NCBI GenBank assembly: GCA_002842575.1
Contig: PHDJ01000011.1
Span: forward strand, 1 to 64,000
Direction: 5' to 3'
Length of the DNA: 64,000 nt
From: Bacteroidetes bacterium HGW-Bacteroidetes-2
Lineage (GTDB): Bacteria; Bacteroidota; Bacteroidia; Flavobacteriales; Flavobacteriaceae
Made by a program: the position numbers and the translations under genes. This document shows positions 6,861 through 36,388 of this stretch, one piece after another. The notes beneath the pieces are model-generated. The model made no database searches, was not told the DNA's origin, and saw only the letters and a list, made by a program, of their open reading frames with translations. Numbering within the stretch: the first letter of the stretch is position 1; each line of letters begins with the position of its first letter.

Positions 6861-7337
6861 CTAAAAACCCTCATTTTCCATTTGAATACGATAATCAAAT
6901 TGCAAGTCTTCGTGCAGGGTATTTATTTTATTTTTAAGATATGCTAATTGTCTGTTTTGTATGTTTTGTAAGGACTTATCTTGGCTTATAGAAGGGGTAA
7001 AATCCTTTAATTGGGTACAAAAGTAGAGCAAAAGTTCTACCTCGGTTTCTGTTTTTAAGGAATAGCGTATGTATTTTTTCAAGCTTTTTAGTAGTTTCCT
7101 AACACTTTTACGGATCCAATAATAATTTCCAGTGTTTATCTCTTTAAATTGAGAATCTATTTCCAGTTTTACCCCTGTTATATATTCCATTTCATTATCT
7201 GCTTCAAAAAGAAGGTAGGTAAGTAGTTCTTTATTTTCTTTTTTAAATTTTGACAATCGCAGGCAAAGTTTCAAAAGCTCCTCTGTAGAGCGATATTGAA
7301 GTTCCTTTTTAAGTTGAGTGATGGTAGCGGTTTTCAT
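6861..7337 (-). CDS. Conserved hypothetical protein, Lys/Leu-rich, helical
   Basis: A 158-residue, probably cytoplasmic and mostly alpha-helical protein rich in Lys, Leu and Glu. It has no signal peptide or membrane segment. The N-terminal QLKKEL...STEELLKLCLRL pattern is reminiscent of Bacteroidota proteins of unknown function (possibly DUF6155-like; tentative). I use the ATG at 7337; an in-frame TTG at 7358 overlaps a TAACTTTG promoter box and is unlikely. It converges on wzc, with 24 bases between the stops, and is separated from the caspase operon by about 390 bases. There is no evidence that it belongs to either neighbour. Confidence 0.7.
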   Translation of the reverse strand: MKTATITQLKKELQYRSTEELLKLCLRLSKFKKENKELLTYLLFEADNEMEYITGVKLEIDSQFKEINTGNYYWIRKSVRKLLKSLKKYIRYSLKTETEVELLLYFCTQLKDFTPSISQDKSLQNIQNRQLAYLKNKINTLHEDLQFDYRIQMENEGF

Positions 7338-7970: not shown

Positions 7971-10208
7971 TTAAGTTAAAAATTTAGCTTTTAAAAATTT
8001 AGTAAAAGCATCCTCTTGGGTATTCATTAAACTAGTATATGCTACAAAAGCATTTGTGTGTATGGATATTTTTTCGCGAAGACCTGCTGCTTCTGCGGCA
8101 AGACTATAATATACAGTTGCTTTTTCAAAATCGCCACAATACATAGCTGCTTCGGCTATAGTGGCATTTTTCCACAAACTGCTAAACAGATCTTTTTCAG
8201 TAGCTTCTAAGGCTTGTTGTGCATATTTACGCATTTTATTTTTATCCTCTTCATAGATTAAACTTAAAAATGCCAGATTTATGGCATGGTAATACATTTG
8301 TTCGAAGTCGTTTTTTTGGGTAGAAATGGCTAATCCTTTGTTATAATACACCATGGCTTTACTTCCATCAGAATCTGAAAGCGTTTGGAGGTATTTTCTT
8401 TTTAGTCTTCCTCCTAAAACCCCTATTAAGTCTGTGTTTTCTTGAGAAAGTGGATGTTTTAGTAATAAATTCATCACTTCTTCATGTCGATCTAAACCTT
8501 CCAAAGCAAAAAGGAGTTGTTTTAAGCCTTTTATATTTAATGTTTCCTTATCGGGCATTAATTTTTTAACAACAGTATCATATTCCCCCAAGAGGTTGTT
8601 GATTTCCTCCTGATTGGTATACCGATTGAAAAATTCATTATTATTTAAGGTGTCTAAAATCAACCGATAGCTGTCGTTTTCTTTGTTTGCAGGTTGTACC
8701 ATCGAAAAATGATTACCTGCAATAGTTACCTGGTATTTTTTGTCAAAAGGATTAAAATTAGTATGCAAAGGCACATCTTTATCGTCTATGCTGGCAACAA
8801 CTTTAAAGGCAAATGGATAATCTTTTGCAAAGGTTTTTTCCCAATTACTGCGTAAAGTTTTGATAAAAGGCGCTTCCTTATTTAAATCGACCCAGCGTTT
8901 GTCTAGTGTTTTAGAGGGGTCCACCTCTATTCCATTGCTCGGGGTTCCAAAAAGCAACACATGGCTAATTCGGCTTAAATCGTTTTTATCGAGGTCTAAT
9001 AAGGTTTTCTGCACTGCTAAACCTCCTAAACTATGTGCAACAATGGCAATGCGTTTATAATTACCGTATTTGTGTTTTATAGAAGCAGATAGATAATCAG
9101 CAACCCTATGAATATCTTCTACAGAAGCCCAAATGTCTTTTCCCATTTGTGGTTTTACATTTTCTGAATATCCAAAAGGATACATATCCCATCCTTTCAT
9201 TTCGGGATCTTCTTGAATATGTTGTTGCATGGTATCAAAAGTAGTAGCACATTCCCCAGAAAATCCGTGAATAAACAAGACTGTATTTACTGCGGCATCC
9301 TGTTTTCTGAAAATTGTAACTATATCTTTTTCAACTTGTTTTGATGTATTTAGTGATGTATTAGTTAAAGTGTTTTCTTTTTTTAGTTTTTCTTTTGGAA
9401 GCCTGCTTAATATAATATCATCATACATTTGTATGTTTACAAATGGTCGTTGTAAAGGCTGCCTTTCTGGTACTTTTTTCATTAAATAATTAATGACTTC
9501 CGTTAATCGAATATAAGGATCGTCAAAAAACGGTTTATGATCTCCTTTAAGCACTTCCACTAAGCAGGTAGTGAATAAACTTAGGGGGTCGCCAGAAAGT
9601 ATGAATGATTTTTCATCTGTTCTACAAGATGATAAGATGGATGTGCCTTTGCCGTCTTCTATTTTTTGCACTAATCCTTCTGGATTTCTTAATCTATTTT
9701 TTAATTCTGATGGGTTTATCTCTGTGCCAGACTTTGTCATTCCTTCTGCGTGGCAACAATCTAAAAATAATACAATTCGTTTTGATTTTAATGAGCTAAT
9801 ATATTCTTTTAATTCTTCAGCGCGTAACCATGTTTTTTCAAAGTTTTCAATAGTACAATCATTAAGTTGTAAAAAATAATATCGGTTATTTTCTTTTTTA
9901 GATTTTAAAGGTTCCCCGGTATTATTTCTATATATTAGGTCATTATCGGTAAAAGTACCCCCATGTCCGGAATAATAGATAAGCACTGAAGAATCTTCAT
10001 TTGTGTTTTTCATTAAATTTTTAAAGGCATTTGTTATATTTTTTCTTATTGCTAGTTTATCGGTTAACAGCGTTATATTTTCTTTTTTATACCCTGCAAT
10101 TTTTGGGTTTGAAAGAATGGAATACATTGCTTTAGCATCCTGAACACTTTGGGGTAAATCGTGACCAACACCTATGATTATGGCATGAGAGTTTTTTAAA
10201 GTTTTCAT
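7971..10208 (-). CDS. Caspase-like protease fused to alpha/beta hydrolase and TPR-S domain
   Basis: A 745-residue cytoplasmic protein with three parts. Residues 1-270 are a C14 caspase-like domain: the SGHG motif gives catalytic His82 and LFLDCCHAEG gives Cys152. Residues 305-520 are an alpha/beta-hydrolase: IHGFSG at 313-318, nucleophile elbow AHSLGG with Ser393, acids in IDDKD (475-478) and His500. The C-terminal part (about 595-710), with GRLKRKYLQ and repeated helical pairs, resembles the TPR-S/TRAFs-binding (DUF4071) repeats found in predicted prokaryotic conflict proteins. Both active sites look intact. Tight spacing to genes on either side indicates an operon. I infer an abortive-infection or regulated cell-death effector; the activating signal and target are unknown. 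Confidence 0.9.
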   Translation of the reverse strand: MKTLKNSHAIIIGVGHDLPQSVQDAKAMYSILSNPKIAGYKKENITLLTDKLAIRKNITNAFKNLMKNTNEDSSVLIYYSGHGGTFTDNDLIYRNNTGEPLKSKKENNRYYFLQLNDCTIENFEKTWLRAEELKEYISSLKSKRIVLFLDCCHAEGMTKSGTEINPSELKNRLRNPEGLVQKIEDGKGTSILSSCRTDEKSFILSGDPLSLFTTCLVEVLKGDHKPFFDDPYIRLTEVINYLMKKVPERQPLQRPFVNIQMYDDIILSRLPKEKLKKENTLTNTSLNTSKQVEKDIVTIFRKQDAAVNTVLFIHGFSGECATTFDTMQQHIQEDPEMKGWDMYPFGYSENVKPQMGKDIWASVEDIHRVADYLSASIKHKYGNYKRIAIVAHSLGGLAVQKTLLDLDKNDLSRISHVLLFGTPSNGIEVDPSKTLDKRWVDLNKEAPFIKTLRSNWEKTFAKDYPFAFKVVASIDDKDVPLHTNFNPFDKKYQVTIAGNHFSMVQPANKENDSYRLILDTLNNNEFFNRYTNQEEINNLLGEYDTVVKKLMPDKETLNIKGLKQLLFALEGLDRHEEVMNLLLKHPLSQENTDLIGVLGGRLKRKYLQTLSDSDGSKAMVYYNKGLAISTQKNDFEQMYYHAINLAFLSLIYEEDKNKMRKYAQQALEATEKDLFSSLWKNATIAEAAMYCGDFEKATVYYSLAAEAAGLREKISIHTNAFVAYTSLMNTQEDAFTKFLKAKFLT

Positions 10209-21180: not shown

Positions 21181-22035
21181 ATGAAAGAAATACGCATTGG
21201 AGGTGTTCCTGAACATTTTAACCTTGCCTGGTATCTTACCCTAAAAGAAAAATCTTTTCAAAAAGAAGGAATTAACTTGCGTTGGAAAAATTATTTTGGA
21301 GGCACAGGCGCAATGAATAAAGGACTTCGGGAAAAAGAAATTGATATTGCCATAATTCTTACCGAAGGTATTATTAGAGATATCATTAATGGAAATCCAT
21401 CAAAAATTGTTCAGGTTTTTGTTAAATCACCTTTGATTTGGGGTATTCACGTAGCTTCTACTTCTCCCTACCAAACCATCTCAGATTTAAAAGGAAAACA
21501 TGCCGCAATAAGTCGTTTTGGCTCTGGTTCGCATTTAATGGCTCACATTCATGCAAAAAATCAAGGCTGGGACTTGACTAAAGATTTAAAATTTAGAGAA
21601 ATAAGTAATTTAGAAGGTGCTTTAAAAGGACTTCCCATAGGCATAGGCGACTATTTTATGTGGGAAAAATTTACCACAAAACCTTATGTAGATAATGGTG
21701 TTTTTAGAAGATTAGGCAACTGCCCAACTCCCTGGCCTTGTTTTGTTATTGCAATAAGAAATGAAATTTTAGAAAAGGACTCCGAAAGTATAAAAACTAT
21801 TTTAGAAATTATTAATCAAGAAACCAAACAATTTAAAACCTTGCCAAACATTGATAGCATCATCTCTAATAGGTATAATCAGAAAATAGAAGATGTAAGA
21901 GAGTGGTTATCTATTACTCAATGGAGCCAAGAACAACTGGAAGAAAATGACATTCAAGAAGTTCAAAATCAACTTTATACTATTAATTTAATTGATAAAA
22001 AGATTCCTTCTGAAACCATTCTTTATAAAATCTAA
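21181..22035 (+). CDS. Type II periplasmic-binding-fold protein without signal peptide (NMT1/THI5-like)
   Basis: A 284-residue protein whose sequence follows ABC-transporter substrate-binding proteins of the NMT1/THI5/SsuA kind: KEIRIGGVPEHFNLAWYL at the start, then EGINLRWKNYFGGTGAMNKGLREKEIDIAII and DLKGKHAAISRFGSGSHLMAH. There is no signal peptide or lipobox before the fold begins at residue 3, so it should be cytoplasmic, and no permease or ATPase gene is nearby. It is nine bases downstream of a nucleoside phosphorylase. A cytoplasmic enzyme or sensor built on this fold is possible; function not known. Confidence 0.82.
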   Translation: MKEIRIGGVPEHFNLAWYLTLKEKSFQKEGINLRWKNYFGGTGAMNKGLREKEIDIAIILTEGIIRDIINGNPSKIVQVFVKSPLIWGIHVASTSPYQTISDLKGKHAAISRFGSGSHLMAHIHAKNQGWDLTKDLKFREISNLEGALKGLPIGIGDYFMWEKFTTKPYVDNGVFRRLGNCPTPWPCFVIAIRNEILEKDSESIKTILEIINQETKQFKTLPNIDSIISNRYNQKIEDVREWLSITQWSQEQLEENDIQEVQNQLYTINLIDKKIPSETILYKI

Positions 22036-22100
22036 AAAAATGTTAATTTAAACGCAACCATTTTTTATATTATACATCTATAAGGAAACAAACCAACGTT

Positions 22101-22208
22101 ATGACCACATTTTTAATTATTATTGGGGCACTTATAGCTTGTAATTTTTTGCTTTTGCATTTTAGCTGTAATGACGCCTCTGAAACGCATACTCCAGACG
22201 AAGAATAA
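22101..22208 (+). CDS. 35-residue membrane peptide
   Basis: The ATG at 22101 opens a 35-residue frame: one hydrophobic helix (FLIIIGALIACNFLLLHF) followed by a short acidic tail (SETHTPDEE). It looks like a single-pass small membrane protein of a type common in Flavobacteriaceae. It follows the binding-protein gene by 65 bases, with a purine-rich leader (AAGGAAAC) upstream. Function unknown. Confidence 0.55.
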   Translation: MTTFLIIIGALIACNFLLLHFSCNDASETHTPDEE

Positions 22209-22255
22209 AAATTACAAAAAAAGAATTTTATTTTTGTCATTTTTATTTTTTTGAA

Positions 22256-22882
22256 TTACCAATTAATTTTTTCCTCCCCCTTTTCTTTTAAATAATTATT
22301 GGTTTTACTGAAATGTTTGTTGCCAAACCAGTTAAGAACTAGATGTTTTGTTTGGTCAATTAGTGTTATCTTCTTTTTAGCATATCCTCCCCAAAGCAGA
22401 AATACCACCCCTTTTTTTTGCTCCGAAATAGTTTTAATAATCGTATCTGTAAATACCTCCCAGCCTTTGTTTTGATGTGAAGCCGCTTGGTGTGCTCTTA
22501 CGGTTAAGGTTGCATTTAATAGTAAAACACCCTGTTTTGCCCAATGTTCTAAATTTCCACTTGGTGGTATTTCAATTTGAAGATCCTTTTTAATTTCTAA
22601 AAATATATTTTGAAGCGATGGAGGTTTTGCAATGCCCTTATGAACAGAAAAACACAAGCCATTTGCCTGCCCTAAATCGTGATATGGATCCTGACCTATA
22701 ATAACCACTTTTACTTTTGAGAAAGGCGTTTGGGTAAAAGCTGAAAATACCTCTTCTATTGGTGGAAAACACAATTCTTTGCTATATTCTTCTTTTACAA
22801 ATTTTGTCAAGATTTTGAAATACTCTTTTTCAAATTCTGTTGAAAGTTTCTCCCGCCAACTTTCTTCTATTTTTTCGTGCAT
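22256..22882 (-). CDS. ung: Uracil-DNA glycosylase, with the HPSPLS loop deleted
   Basis: A 208-residue family-1 UDG that should remove uracil from DNA. Present: GQDPYH (63-68, water-activating Asp65), FSV after the Tyr-like stacking position, LLLNATLTVRA with Asn123, VVFLLWG and the C-terminal KHFSKTN...INW. Missing: the segment of about 12-13 residues that holds HPSPLSA, i.e. the catalytic His and the DNA-intercalating Leu. The chain jumps in frame from HLVLN184 to W185FGNKHF (junction at about 22330/22331). Activity should be severely reduced unless this is a sequence error. I use the ATG at 22882, not an in-frame codon at 22936, which lies within the start of the divergent mutS2. Confidence 0.88.
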   Translation of the reverse strand: MHEKIEESWREKLSTEFEKEYFKILTKFVKEEYSKELCFPPIEEVFSAFTQTPFSKVKVVIIGQDPYHDLGQANGLCFSVHKGIAKPPSLQNIFLEIKKDLQIEIPPSGNLEHWAKQGVLLLNATLTVRAHQAASHQNKGWEVFTDTIIKTISEQKKGVVFLLWGGYAKKKITLIDQTKHLVLNWFGNKHFSKTNNYLKEKGEEKINW

Positions 22883-22885
22883 TAT

Positions 22886-22910
22886 GCTTACTTTTACCGT
22901 AAAAATAAGC
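22886..22910. promoter_or_regulatory. 25-bp palindrome between ung and mutS2 (possible operator)
   Basis: The sequence is symmetric about base 22898: arms of 12 bases with 11 matching pairs, ending in GCTTA/TAAGC and centred on TTTTACCGTAAAA. It fills most of the 40-base gap between the two divergent start codons, three bases from the ung ATG. It could bind a dimeric regulator of both genes, or fold in the ung leader RNA. Confidence 0.5.
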
Positions 22911-22922
22911 AGAATATCTTTA

Positions 22923-25097
22923 ATGATTAAAATCACACCAAAATCTCTTCATGATTTAGAATTTCACACTGTAAGAAAACATCTTGCGTCTTTATGCATA
23001 ACCGAAATTGCAAGTGAACGAGCACTAGAAATAGTGCCGTTTTCTACTTTTGAAGATGCGAAAATAGCACTAATAGAAGTCCAAGAATACAAAGCATCCT
23101 TAAATGGGGACAATCGAATTCCTAATCATGGATTTGAAGCTATTTTTAGAGAATTGAAATTGTTACAAGTGGAAAATAGCATGCTGGAAATTTCTTCTTT
23201 TCGAAAGATTTTAGGGGTTACCGAAACTACCTATACCTTACTAAATTTCTTTTCTAAATTTAAGGAATTTTACCTCTCGCTTTATGCAAAATCTTCAGAG
23301 GTACAATATACTAATAGTATAGGCGATGAGATAAAAAGTATTATAGACAAATATGGCGAAATAAAAGACAATGCCACACCCGAATTAGCAAGCATAAGAA
23401 GAGCAATGAACGGGATGAAAGGAAAAATTAATTCATCGTTTTTAGCAGCATTATCAAAATATAATGGGTTGGATTATCTAGATGAAATACGCGAATCTTT
23501 TATAGATAACCGAAGAGTACTTGCGGTAAAAGCTATGTATCGCAAAAAAGTAAAAGGAGCATTAATGGGTACATCAAAAACAGGAAGTATTGTTTTTATT
23601 GAACCCGAAGCCACATTAAACTACTCAAGAGAACTAAACAACCTGCTTTTTGAAGAAAACGAGGAAATTACAAAAATCCTCAAGAAATTAACCAATTATA
23701 TGCGGCCGTTCAGAGAAGTCATAGATACCTATCAGGAATTTTTAATTGCTATAGATATTATTGCCGCAAAAGCAAAATATGCACATCAATTAAACGCAGT
23801 ACTACCTGTACTTACCAAAGAAAGAAATTTGCACTTAATAGATGCATACCACCCAATTTTATACCTCAGTAATCTAAAAAATAAAGAAAAAACCTATCCA
23901 CAAACCATTGAATTAATTTCTGAAAAGCGCATCATTGTTATTTCAGGACCTAACGCTGGAGGAAAGAGTATCACTCTTAAAACCGTTGGTTTGCTTCAGT
24001 TAATGATACAAAGTGGGATGCTTATTCCTGTAAAAGTACAAAGCAAAGTTTGCTTTTTTGATAGAATTTTAACGGATATTGGCGATAATCAATCCATTGA
24101 AAATCATTTAAGCACCTACAGCTATCGTTTGAAAATGATGAATTATTTTCTTAAAAAATGCAATAATAAAACCCTTTTTTTAATAGATGAATTTGGCACC
24201 GGAAGCGACCCTGAATTAGGAGGTGCACTAGCAGAAACTTTTTTAGAAGTATTTTATGAACGCGAAGCCTTTGGCATTATAACCACACATTACACCAATT
24301 TAAAAATGCTTGCTAATGAGTTACCCCACGCTATAAATGGCAATATGATGTTTAATCAAAACACACTAGAACCATTGTATAAGTTACATTTAGGCGAAGC
24401 CGGAAGCTCCTTTACATTTGAGGTAGCTCAAAAAAATGGTATCCCCTACAGTTTGATTAACCGATCAAAAAAGAAAATAGAGCGCAGCAAATTGCGTTTT
24501 GATAAAAGCATAGCTGACCTGCAAAAGGAACGTTCTAAACTTCAGAAAACATCAGAATCCTTAAAAACAGAGGAACAAAAAGCAAAAGTAGAAAGCAAAC
24601 AATTAGAAGAAATAAATCTGAAAATTCAACAAAAACTAGAAAGTTATCAGGAGTTATATGACAGCAACCAGCGATTAATTCATTTAGGAAGAAAAATAGA
24701 TGTCTTGGCGGAAAACTATTTTAATTCTAAACAGAAAAAACAATTATTAGATGAGTTTTTGAAAATTGTGACCATAGAAAATTCAAAAAAAACAATACAA
24801 CCTGTTAAGGAAAAAAAGGCATTAAAAGCCAAAGTAATTCGTGTAGAAAAAGAAGTAGAACAAAAAGTGGCAGTAATACGTGAGAAGAAAATAGAAAAAA
24901 AAGTTTTACAGAAAAGAGAAGTTGAAAACAAACCTAAAGTACAACTAAAAATTGGGGATAAAGTGCGAATGGTTGGTGGTAAAGCTACAGGTACTATTGA
25001 CTCTTTAGAAAAAAATAAAGCCACTGTAAATTATGGTATCTTTACTACCAACCTAAATGTGGATGCCCTTGAATTTGTAGAAAGAAAGAAAAAGTAG
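22923..25097 (+). CDS. mutS2: MutS2-like DNA-binding ATPase
   Basis: A 724-residue protein of the MutS2 family, linked to control of recombination and, in some bacteria, ribosome collision rescue (family knowledge). It has the MutS core and lever helices (about 1-320) and an ABC-type ATPase domain with GPNAGGKS (342-349), LIDEFGTGSDPELGGALAE and THYTNLKML. A long Lys/Glu-rich coiled coil follows (about 510-680), then a KOW-like beta segment (KIGDKVRMVGGKATGTI). The C-terminal Smr endonuclease domain of Bacillus MutS2 is absent. The ATG at 22923 is chosen; upstream in-frame codons overlap ung. Confidence 0.9.
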   Translation: MIKITPKSLHDLEFHTVRKHLASLCITEIASERALEIVPFSTFEDAKIALIEVQEYKASLNGDNRIPNHGFEAIFRELKLLQVENSMLEISSFRKILGVTETTYTLLNFFSKFKEFYLSLYAKSSEVQYTNSIGDEIKSIIDKYGEIKDNATPELASIRRAMNGMKGKINSSFLAALSKYNGLDYLDEIRESFIDNRRVLAVKAMYRKKVKGALMGTSKTGSIVFIEPEATLNYSRELNNLLFEENEEITKILKKLTNYMRPFREVIDTYQEFLIAIDIIAAKAKYAHQLNAVLPVLTKERNLHLIDAYHPILYLSNLKNKEKTYPQTIELISEKRIIVISGPNAGGKSITLKTVGLLQLMIQSGMLIPVKVQSKVCFFDRILTDIGDNQSIENHLSTYSYRLKMMNYFLKKCNNKTLFLIDEFGTGSDPELGGALAETFLEVFYEREAFGIITTHYTNLKMLANELPHAINGNMMFNQNTLEPLYKLHLGEAGSSFTFEVAQKNGIPYSLINRSKKKIERSKLRFDKSIADLQKERSKLQKTSESLKTEEQKAKVESKQLEEINLKIQQKLESYQELYDSNQRLIHLGRKIDVLAENYFNSKQKKQLLDEFLKIVTIENSKKTIQPVKEKKALKAKVIRVEKEVEQKVAVIREKKIEKKVLQKREVENKPKVQLKIGDKVRMVGGKATGTIDSLEKNKATVNYGIFTTNLNVDALEFVERKKK

Positions 25098-25517: not shown

Positions 25518-26393
25518 TTATTCAATATTTCCCCTAATAATAAGATCATGACTAGTCGCAAAATTATTGATATACCAATTGCCAAGTGTGCCAGATGCAT
25601 CCCAACATACAATTCTAAATACAACGGTAGTAACAGAAGTTAAATTTTGCAAATCTAGTATGCTACTTAAATTAATTGCAGCTTGGAGATTACCTGCTCC
25701 TGCTGTATTATTTCCCCAACTTATTGCACCTTCTATATCAATAAAGTTAACTCCATCAATGCTATATTGCCAAATTCCAGTAGTTGGTCCAGTTCCAGAT
25801 CTTCGAATGTTATAAGGGTCAATTGATTGTAAGGAAATAGTAGCCCCCAAAACTGGTGTAATAGTAAAAGTGACAAAATTTTCAGCATCAATGGCACTAG
25901 CTTGTTCTGCTATAAGTAAATCAAAACCATTTCCGCCCCAAGCATTTCCAGCTCCTCCACCAGAAGTTGTAATACCGGCTCCTCGTGTTAAACCACCAAC
26001 ATTAACTGAGGCATTAGTTAATGTTGCAGCAAATGGACTCAAACCAAAAGCAGCTAAACCATTCATTTCCCATCCAGCCAAAATTGGAGAAGGACTAATG
26101 CTTTGAGTGAATATTATTTCCCAAATATTCTCCACACCATTGTATATCTGTAATGTTCTATTAATACCATCCATTACATATACTAAAAGCCCATCATCGG
26201 CAGCGGTTACCGGAATTAAATCGCGTTGGGAAATAGTTACTCTTGGAGGCATCAAGCCACCAAAATTAGTACCATTATTTGTACTGCTAATATCTAAAAC
26301 AGATGCGGTACTTGGAGTTGTTGTATTTATACCAACCTGAGAAATGGCAATACTCGAAAAAAGAAAAACAGCTAGTGTTATGAATGCTTTCAT
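25518..26393 (-). CDS. Secreted protein of unknown function
   Basis: A 291-residue exported protein. The signal peptide MKAFITLAVFLFSSIAISQ is followed by VGINTTTPSTASVLDISSTNNG, a start shared by many Flavobacteriaceae surface proteins. A lectin-like or jelly-roll-like beta region follows (Gly/Asn/Thr-rich). No C-terminal sorting domain, lipobox or enzyme motif was recognised. It converges on the DCC gene with 11 bases between stops. Likely a surface or periplasmic protein. Confidence 0.78.
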   Translation of the reverse strand: MKAFITLAVFLFSSIAISQVGINTTTPSTASVLDISSTNNGTNFGGLMPPRVTISQRDLIPVTAADDGLLVYVMDGINRTLQIYNGVENIWEIIFTQSISPSPILAGWEMNGLAAFGLSPFAATLTNASVNVGGLTRGAGITTSGGGAGNAWGGNGFDLLIAEQASAIDAENFVTFTITPVLGATISLQSIDPYNIRRSGTGPTTGIWQYSIDGVNFIDIEGAISWGNNTAGAGNLQAAINLSSILDLQNLTSVTTVVFRIVCWDASGTLGNWYINNFATSHDLIIRGNIE

Positions 26394-33325: not shown

Positions 33326-36249
33326 GGATATTTCAACGCATTTCTTAAAATAGTAATGGGATGCAGCGCTATTCTATCTGTTCCATCCTTAATTTGATGC
33401 CTGCAGCTTGTTCCTGTTGCTGCTAAAATAGTATCTAACGGTGTTTTTCTTATTGACGGAAAAAGAGTCAGTTCGCCCATTTTCATACTGATGTAATAAT
33501 GTTCTTTTTCATATCCAAAAGAACCTGCCATTCCACAACAACCTGATGGTATAACTGTTACTTTATAATTTTTGGGAAGGTTTACCACTTGAAAAGTTGC
33601 AGTTACACTAGATAAAGCCTTTTGATGACAATGTACATGCAGTTTAATAGTTTTTTCTTCTTCTGAAAAGGAATTGGCTGTAATATTTCCTTTTGCTATC
33701 TCTTTGGCCAAAAACTCCTCGATCGTAAAAGTATTAGTGGCCAATTTTTTTGCAGCTTCTTTATCTTTAGCGAGTCTTATATATTCATCTCTGAAAGTAA
33801 GTATTGCCGAAGGTTCTAGTCCAATTAGTGGGACATCCTCAGAAATTAGTTCTTTAAAAATAGCTATATTTTTATTAGCCACAACTTTGGCTTCTTCTAA
33901 AAATCCTTTAGATATAAAAGCTCTTCCGCTTTGGAAATGCTCAGTTATTTGTACATCGTATCCCAACTGAGATAATAAATGCAAGGCATCAATACCAATT
34001 TCGGTGTCTAATAATTCTGTAAATTCATCAAGAAAAAAATAAATTTTTGATTTATAGGTATTATTTTGTTTTTTAATACTTTGCAATTCTTTATTAAACT
34101 TAAAGGTTGAAAGTAATGGTAAACTTCTTTTTGGCGCAATACCTATTATTTTTTTTAAAATTAAAGAGGTGAAAGGATTTGAAAAAACAAAATTTGTTAG
34201 TTTTTTCATTTTGCTTCCAAGAAGGTTATACTGATGATTTTTTGCAAAAAGTTTTGTACGAAAACTACTTCCATTTGCTTTTTTAAATTGGAATTCAAAT
34301 TCCGCTTTTAGTGAAGCCATATCTACATTTGAGGGACATTCACTTTTACATCCTTTGCAACTAATGCAAAGTTCAAACACTTCTTTTAACTCTTTATGAT
34401 TAAATTTATTTGCTTTTTCGCTTTGGGTTAAAAATTCACGTAAGGCATTGGCTCGTCCACGAGTTGTATCTTTTTCATTATTTGTTACCCGATAACTTGG
34501 GCACATGCTACCCCCTGCACTCTCAGGTTTTCTGCAATCGCCACTTCCATTACATTTTTCAGCGCTTCTGAGAATACCTAAGGAATCTGAAAAATCTAAA
34601 AGTGTTTCTATTAAAGGTTCTTTTTGATTGGTTTTATAACGCAAATTTTTATCTATTGGTAGTGGTGCAACAATCTTTCCGGGATTAAAAATAGTATTTG
34701 GGTCAAATACGCATTTTATTTCTCTAATAATTTGAAAATTAGCTTCGCCTATCATTAATGGTAGGAATGAAGAACGCACGATACCATCACCATGCTCCCC
34801 ACTCAAGGATCCTTTGTATTTTTTAACTAAGTGAGCAACGGCGTTTGTAATTTGCTTAAAAAGAGCTACATCTTTTTTATCTTTAAGATTTAAAATAGGA
34901 CGCAAATGCAATTCACCGGCACCAGCATGGGCATAATACACAGCTTTTTGATTGAAAGACTGCATCAATTTTGTAAATTCTGATATATAATTTGAGAGGT
35001 CTTCTAAAGCTACCGCGGTGTCTTCTATACAGGCTACGGCTTTTTTATCACCATGGATATTACCCAGTAACCCAAGACCGGCTTTGCGAAGCTCTAAGGC
35101 TTTTTCAATGTCGTTACCAAGTAGAATTGGTAAGGCGTATGCCAGATTTGTTTCTTTTAAATGTGCAATAAGATTTTTAGACATTTGAAAAACTTCCTCT
35201 TGGGTATTTGCTTTAAGTTCCAATAATAAAATAGCCTCAGGATCACCTTCAATAAAAAACCGACTTTCTTTGTATTTTAGGTTTTCTTTTGTGCAATCTA
35301 GAATCACCTTATCCATCATTTCGCAAGTAAAAAGAGTGTGCGACATAGCGGGAACCACGCTTTTTAAACAATTTTCAATTGAGCGAAAATGTGCTGCAAT
35401 CAGTATCGTTTCTGAAGGAGGAAGTATATCTAATTGTAATTTAATTTTTGTGGTAAACGCTAAAGTGCCTTCGCTTCCTGTGAGCAGTTTGCACATATTG
35501 AAAGGGGACCCATTTTTTGAAAATACTTCAGATTTAATTAGTTCATCGATGGCATAGCCAGTATTTCTTCGGTGGATTTTTGGGTTCGGAAAATTATCGC
35601 GTATTCTTTTTTGAACAATTTTATCTTTTAACTGATTGTATATTGTATGGTATATATTACCTTCTAAGGAGTTTTCTTTTGTTTTTTTTAAAAATTCATC
35701 AAATGAAACCTCTTTAAAAGTAACTAAAGAGCCATCCGATAAAATGGTTTCCATTTCTAAGACTTTATCTCTGGTAACACCATACGTTATGGAGGTGGTT
35801 CCGCTAGAGTTATTACCTACCATGCCGCCAAGCATACACCGGTTTGAAGTAGAAGTGTTTGGCCCAAAAAAAAGGCCTAATTTTTTTAGTTGCAAATTAA
35901 GAACGTCTCGGATAACTCCTGGTTCAATAATTACAGTTTTTTCTTTTTCATCTATTTGTAGAATGCGGGTAAAATATTTTGAAACATCTACAACTATTTC
36001 TTTTCCAACGCATTGTCCGGCAAGTGATGTGCCTGCTGTTCGTGGTATTAAACTTGTTTTATTGGTTGTTGCAAATGCAATTAGTTTTTGTAAGTCTGCT
36101 ATGGTTTTTGGTAAAGCTATAGCATCAGGAAGAATTCTGTACACGGAAGCATCTGTGGCATATAGTGCTTTTGATAGTTCATCTACTAGTATTTCGCCAT
36201 CTAAGGAAGCGGCTAATTTGTTTAAGGCTTTGTGGTTAGGTGTTTTCAT
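33322..36249 (-). CDS. FAD-binding and 4Fe-4S oxidoreductase (D-lactate dehydrogenase/YdiJ-like)
   Basis: A 975-residue enzyme joining three parts. Residues about 15-240 are a PCMH-type FAD domain (PRTAGTSLAGQCVGKEIVVDVSK split over 50-75, then FGPNTSTSNRCMLGGMVGNNSSG). About 240-530 is the FAD-oxidase C-terminal domain ending in LSGEHGDGI. The remaining part has 4Fe-4S motifs (CNGSGDCRKPESAGGSMCPSYR and CISCKGCKSECP) and a CCG-like region with HCHQKAL and PSGCCGMAGSFGYE. Such proteins oxidise 2-hydroxyacids and pass electrons toward quinones. Substrate unknown; it stands alone rather than with lactate-utilisation genes. Confidence 0.92.
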   Translation of the reverse strand: MKTPNHKALNKLAASLDGEILVDELSKALYATDASVYRILPDAIALPKTIADLQKLIAFATTNKTSLIPRTAGTSLAGQCVGKEIVVDVSKYFTRILQIDEKEKTVIIEPGVIRDVLNLQLKKLGLFFGPNTSTSNRCMLGGMVGNNSSGTTSITYGVTRDKVLEMETILSDGSLVTFKEVSFDEFLKKTKENSLEGNIYHTIYNQLKDKIVQKRIRDNFPNPKIHRRNTGYAIDELIKSEVFSKNGSPFNMCKLLTGSEGTLAFTTKIKLQLDILPPSETILIAAHFRSIENCLKSVVPAMSHTLFTCEMMDKVILDCTKENLKYKESRFFIEGDPEAILLLELKANTQEEVFQMSKNLIAHLKETNLAYALPILLGNDIEKALELRKAGLGLLGNIHGDKKAVACIEDTAVALEDLSNYISEFTKLMQSFNQKAVYYAHAGAGELHLRPILNLKDKKDVALFKQITNAVAHLVKKYKGSLSGEHGDGIVRSSFLPLMIGEANFQIIREIKCVFDPNTIFNPGKIVAPLPIDKNLRYKTNQKEPLIETLLDFSDSLGILRSAEKCNGSGDCRKPESAGGSMCPSYRVTNNEKDTTRGRANALREFLTQSEKANKFNHKELKEVFELCISCKGCKSECPSNVDMASLKAEFEFQFKKANGSSFRTKLFAKNHQYNLLGSKMKKLTNFVFSNPFTSLILKKIIGIAPKRSLPLLSTFKFNKELQSIKKQNNTYKSKIYFFLDEFTELLDTEIGIDALHLLSQLGYDVQITEHFQSGRAFISKGFLEEAKVVANKNIAIFKELISEDVPLIGLEPSAILTFRDEYIRLAKDKEAAKKLATNTFTIEEFLAKEIAKGNITANSFSEEEKTIKLHVHCHQKALSSVTATFQVVNLPKNYKVTVIPSGCCGMAGSFGYEKEHYYISMKMGELTLFPSIRKTPLDTILAATGTSCRHQIKDGTDRIALHPITILRNALKYP

Positions 36250-36388
36250 TGCACTAAAAGTACAACTTCCTTTGAATTTACGTTAACACATTTTATATAT
36301 TATTAACAAAAGATTGGGCTTGTATAAAGTGTAAACCTTCATAATTATCTTAATTTCGTGGATAATTAACAGTAAAACCAAAAATAAA

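Follow-up and report, generated by a model that had tools for sequence, protein, structure and literature searches.

The only uracil-DNA glycosylase (Ung) gene detected in the genome that carries the window, i.e., the whole stretch of 64,000 nucleotides analysed here, encodes a protein without the motif B loop, and the probable cause is a genuine and recent in-frame deletion, private to this genome, that has left a folded but essentially inactive enzyme. A recent loss-of-function allele is favoured because of the catalytic content of the loop, its retention in the sister species and the lack of a second Ung. In the following, G000 denotes the genome carrying the window and G001 to G004 four sister species of the same genus, of which G002 is the nearest relative.

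The ung gene and its missing loop

The gene starts with an ATG ending at 22882 and has an open frame of 208 codons. Its position is orthologous to that in the sister species, and a mutS2 orthologue lies on the ung-bearing contig stretch in all four of them. The features referred to below are as follows:

22256 to 22882 including the stop codon (22259 to 22882 without it), minus strand: ung, family-1 uracil-DNA glycosylase, 208 aa, loop-deleted (open reading frame translation and profile matches)
22330 to 22331, minus strand: deletion junction Asn184/Trp185, where 13 codons (39 bp) of the relatives are absent (homologue alignments)
22679 to 22696, minus strand: motif A, GQDPYH (water-activating loop), present (translation; invariant columns)
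22514 to 22528, minus strand: VLLLN strand ending in Asn123 (uracil recognition), present (translation; Leu122 and Asn123 invariant)
22923 to 25097, plus strand: mutS2, the divergent neighbour, open frame (TIGR01069, 538 bits, cut-off 400)

Four of the five listed NCBIfam equivalog profiles pass their cut-off on the window Ung, with NF003589 at 277.7 bits (cut-off 223) and TIGR00628 at 238.7 bits (cut-off 185.75), while NF003591 stays below it (211.4 vs 237); the Pfam profile PF03167 scores 50.8 bits (cut-off 24.3). The solved structures closest to the protein include those of Atlantic cod, Bacillus (BsUDG, 3zoq) and human UNG, and the match to the cod enzyme (1okb, E 3.6e-64) is nearly full length, covering query residues 6-208. 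The motifs of uracil-DNA glycosylases are named A and B. Motif A, whose Asp activates the water, lies at residues 63-68 of the window Ung and is invariant in 53 sequences, and the WGG region is also kept, as is Asn123, which has a role in uracil recognition (PMC5387724). Judged by its sequence, the protein clearly descends from Ung, but as an enzyme it fails one of the motifs that define the class (PMC10359453), as motif B (HPSPLS, with the catalytic His and the intercalating Leu) is absent.

The window Ung reads HLVLN-WFGNKHF, with Asn184 encoded at 22331-22333 and Trp185 at 22328-22330, whereas at the same place the Ung of G002, which is 81% identical over the aligned residues, reads HLVLT-SGHPSPLCANRGY-WFGNKHF. 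The remaining three species of the genus have (S/C)GHPSPLSANRGF as their loop, so that it is kept in all four sister species, among which 10 of the 13 missing columns are identical. The missing residues align to SGHPSPLxANRGY of the relatives, and none of the 110 other distinct homologues deviates at the columns H, P, S, P and G. The first-pass annotation, made from the letters alone, had described an Ung that jumps in frame from HLVLN to WFGNKHF at 22330/22331 and lacks the HPSPLS loop, with which the translation and the alignment of relatives agree; its estimate of 12-13 lost residues was right in size and becomes exactly 13 by alignment. That the lost part holds the catalytic His and the Leu that enters the helix (His187 and Leu191 in E. 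coli) is borne out by the numbering of G002, in which the missing residues include H187-P188-S189-P190, the same numbers as in E. coli. The remainder, taken to be intact, does contain GQDPYH, VLLLN and WGG, with the nuance that the residue directly after GQDPYH is Asp69, where 98 of 110 homologues carry Gly and five carry Asp; by alignment this residue is uncommon, yet present in other homologues.

In E. coli, H187 can act as a general acid and stabilises the leaving group (PMC5387724), and L191 retains the flipped uridine (PMC10359453; PMC3989344). With both residues lost, little or no excision would be expected, where the double mutant cited in support of a loss-of-function reading also carries N123D.

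Rarity of the deletion and age of the loss

Among 111 distinct sequences (112 loci scanned), HPSP is missing from the window Ung alone. These loci comprise 85 from the genome, nearest-relative and peptide searches and 27 from a family search; the peptide search contributed the best 80 of 585 hits, and one of its six peptides (NWFGNKHF) spanned the junction itself. Likewise, all of the 149 family matches listed besides the window's own span 13 more codons than the window Ung, and hence no second lineage with the deletion was found among the 110 other homologues and the 149 matches listed. In the literature, as far as titles and the opening parts of abstracts indicate, no natural Ung without this loop was recognised, which is no proof of absence. 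The counts include L068 and L075, Bacteroidota-like Ungs in metagenome-assembled genomes labelled Rhodobacteraceae and Deltaproteobacteria, which are perhaps mis-binned contigs.

The loss of the loop is also the sole internal deletion private to G000 in 31 gene alignments of the window with the sister species (11,255 aa), which is more than chance; private internal gaps number one in G000, one in G002, three each in G003 and G004 and none in G001. The set includes 35744-36286, a probably spurious overlapping open reading frame, and leaves out genes for which an orthologue in G002 (6861-7337) or a further species was lacking.

Outside the loop, ung has accumulated 0.074 amino acid changes per site on the G000 branch since the split from G002, compared with 0.070 for 25 concatenated neighbours, although the ung tree holds 15 taxa and the neighbour tree four. 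The remainder of the gene is thus as well conserved as had been proposed, and the open 208-codon frame together with a branch rate equal to that of the neighbours leads us to reject a long-standing pseudogene or long-term decay. There is also no frameshift or pair of compensating frames, the frame being open on either side of the junction. With a dS of 0.64 and an assumed 2.25 non-synonymous sites per codon, about 159 changes would be expected on a fully unconstrained G000 branch, while about 15 are estimated, so that a deletion that ended selection would have left no more than about 10% of the branch unconstrained (about 15% at the Poisson upper bound), even with every change placed after the loss. 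However, a very recent loss would leave neither sign, and the decay test therefore limits the age of the loss and not the inactivity of the protein.

On the G002 branch, ung shows 0.175 changes per site vs 0.061 for the neighbours. The pairwise dN/dS of ung (0.164) exceeds the window median of 0.075 (open reading frames of at least 120 aa), and the comparison of the ung and neighbour trees places this excess on the looped gene of G002. Of 157 ung sites fixed in the outgroups, four changed on G000 and eight on G002, a split that does not differ significantly from 225 vs 181 in the other genes (p = 0.15; these totals include the probably spurious frame 35744-36286). The G002 protein (L002, G002:C55:20744-21406, minus strand) has a rate about three times that of its neighbours, carries Cys just after HPSPL where 103 of 110 homologues carry Ser, and has WGEF in place of WGGF or WGGY; constraint on this looped Ung may also be shifting. 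Elsewhere in the window, the open reading frame at 25518-26393 (minus strand) has the highest dN to G002 among the frames compared (dN 0.276, dN/dS 0.20).

Ung limits C to T changes. A comparison of C to T spectra with a close relative had been proposed as a check, and it yields a difference that is not significant: C>T plus G>A make up 18 of 88 changes in G000 and 11 of 81 in G002 (Fisher p = 0.31; 578 polarised four-fold sites), as a recent loss predicts little footprint, and no loss would leave none. Two probably spurious open reading frames (9601-9879 and 35744-36286) were left out of the footprint and rate tests. Four-fold GC content is 25.9% in G000 vs 28.1% in G002 (5,199 sites), which is the expected direction and may have other causes.

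Predicted fold and competing explanations

Structures of the loopless protein and of a looped control were predicted from one set of aligned relatives. The best loopless model (pLDDT 91.5, pTM 0.89; all models 87.7-91.5) is predicted to retain the Ung fold (1okb, Z 31.2, rmsd 1.2, 207 aligned), and the control matches a solved Ung with Z 35.8, rmsd 1.0 and 219 aligned residues, solved Ungs being the top fold matches of both. In the loopless model, the strand 181-184 is followed by a short turn and by helix 190-200, the equivalent of helix 203-213 in the control. Between the best models, pLDDT drops most at residues 61-70, the water-activating loop (76 vs 91), and also at residues 71-80 (82 vs 94) and in the junction block 181-190 (84 vs 97). 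The best control model reaches 95.6, but the other four (86.8-91.4) overlap the loopless ones and are no better, so that the prediction fails to discriminate between the two; it is also a weak test because AlphaFold tends to retain the family fold. A stable Ung core without its active-site lid is plausible from these models.

The first-pass annotation had left two options, a loss- or altered-function allele or an assembly or sequencing deletion, and of these a recent loss of function is favoured. An artefact, in which the ung of the organism is normal and the 39-bp gap stems from assembly, consensus, binning or the sequenced clone or culture, is unlikely. It would be in keeping with a draft genome in 89 contigs (99.99% complete), with the undecayed remainder of ung, and with the near-universal presence of the gene in the family (387 of 397 genomes, and 328 of 330 of good quality), which makes a true null rare a priori. 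However, the gap preserves the reading frame exactly, 22000-23000 contains no N, and ung lies inside an 86.6-kb contig. The longest direct repeat at a spacing of 39 near the loop ends is 1, 3, 1 and 1 bp in the four relatives, which is too short for a collapse by the assembler; slippage at flanking repeats as the mechanism of a real deletion likewise finds no repeat longer than 3 bp at this spacing in these relatives. General gap-proneness of the assembly was rejected for the window, since the 31 alignments hold a single G000-private internal gap.

A loopless Ung could also be selected for a non-catalytic or altered role, such as binding to DNA, single-stranded DNA-binding protein or the replisome, or as a slow glycosylase on unpaired or flipped bases, which we regard as improbable. 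The undecayed remainder fits continued selection on the loopless protein and a recent loss equally well, and a kept role is in line with the purifying constraint that the rest of the gene shows on the G000 branch and with the fold predicted to be intact. Moreover, functions of UNG that do not depend on catalysis exist elsewhere, as in MHV68, whose UNG, with excision eliminated by D85N plus H207L, continues to bind the polymerase and processivity factor of the virus (PMC10312458), and D4 of vaccinia virus is described as a replication component (PMC4450493; PMC1936997). Yet a recent loss yields the same pattern of constraint, and the deletion recurs in no second lineage among the sequences compared. 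A "pseudo-Ung", i.e., a loopless cellular Ung kept as a non-catalytic binder of uracil or AP sites or as a replisome partner, appears highly improbable.

It is hardly probable at all that another enzyme replaces Ung in G000 and makes its loss neutral. In favour of such a replacement, G001 encodes a second protein of the UDG superfamily (L086:1414-1983, plus strand, 189 aa), with GQAPG towards its N-terminus and HPSPRN towards its C-terminus, which suggests gain and loss of such genes within the genus. Against it, the single Ung match in G000 is also its single match to PF03167 (UDG superfamily), which rules out a second ung copy or a loop kept in another UDG gene; no counterpart of the second G001 protein was matched there, and outside G001, each species of the genus has a single PF03167 match, its Ung. 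Endonuclease V (PF04493), the other family searched, has no match in any of the five genomes of the genus; HhH glycosylases and Nei, which belong to neither of these two families, have poor activity on uracil.

In the favoured reading, that of a recent loss of function, the sole ung of a bacterium that looks Flavobacteriaceae-like by its top named homologue hits would have lost motif B (also called the leucine loop or minor-groove loop) through a 39-bp in-frame deletion. The core of the protein would still adopt the Ung fold, and its last strand would lead almost directly into the C-terminal helix. Such an enzyme would have no Leu with which to enter the DNA helix and keep the uridine flipped, and no His to stabilise uracil as the leaving group, so that excision would be abolished or fall by orders of magnitude. 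As a consequence, C:G to T:A changes would build up and uracil in DNA would have to be tolerated by the cell, while dUTPase, which like an Xth-type AP endonuclease is present in G000 as in all five species, would limit dUTP incorporation. If real, this would be a natural bacterium whose sole detected uracil-DNA glycosylase has no loop to aid flipping and cleavage, and would allow tests of the persistence of a lineage without Ung, of C:G to T:A accumulation and of whether dUTPase alone suffices; if a strain-level or assembly event, it would be ordinary. The organism would be useful as a natural repair-defective strain and is not a new kind of system, and a probably folded loopless Ung could separate DNA scanning or protein binding from catalysis.

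Comparison with known uracil-DNA glycosylases

The window Ung resembles the family-1 enzymes, such as E. coli Ung, human UNG and cod UNG (1okb), in sequence, in GQDPYH and in its predicted fold, but these enzymes have the motif B loop (HPSPLS), whereas the window Ung is without its 13 residues. The same loop is affected in the laboratory mutants H187Q (4eug), H187D (2uug) and L191A of E. coli Ung and L272A of human UNG (2ssp), laboratory-mutant structures having been recognised by title among the fold matches, and the effect of L191A has been described (PMC3989344). In contrast to these point changes, the whole loop is absent from the window Ung, and in a natural sequence. The minor-groove loop also varies naturally in length in gammaherpesviruses, whose UNGs have 7-8 residues inserted there (PMC5934625); excision is reportedly retained by all herpesvirus UNGs that have been studied (PMC10312458). 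The change in the viral enzymes is thus an insertion, while that in the window Ung is a removal.
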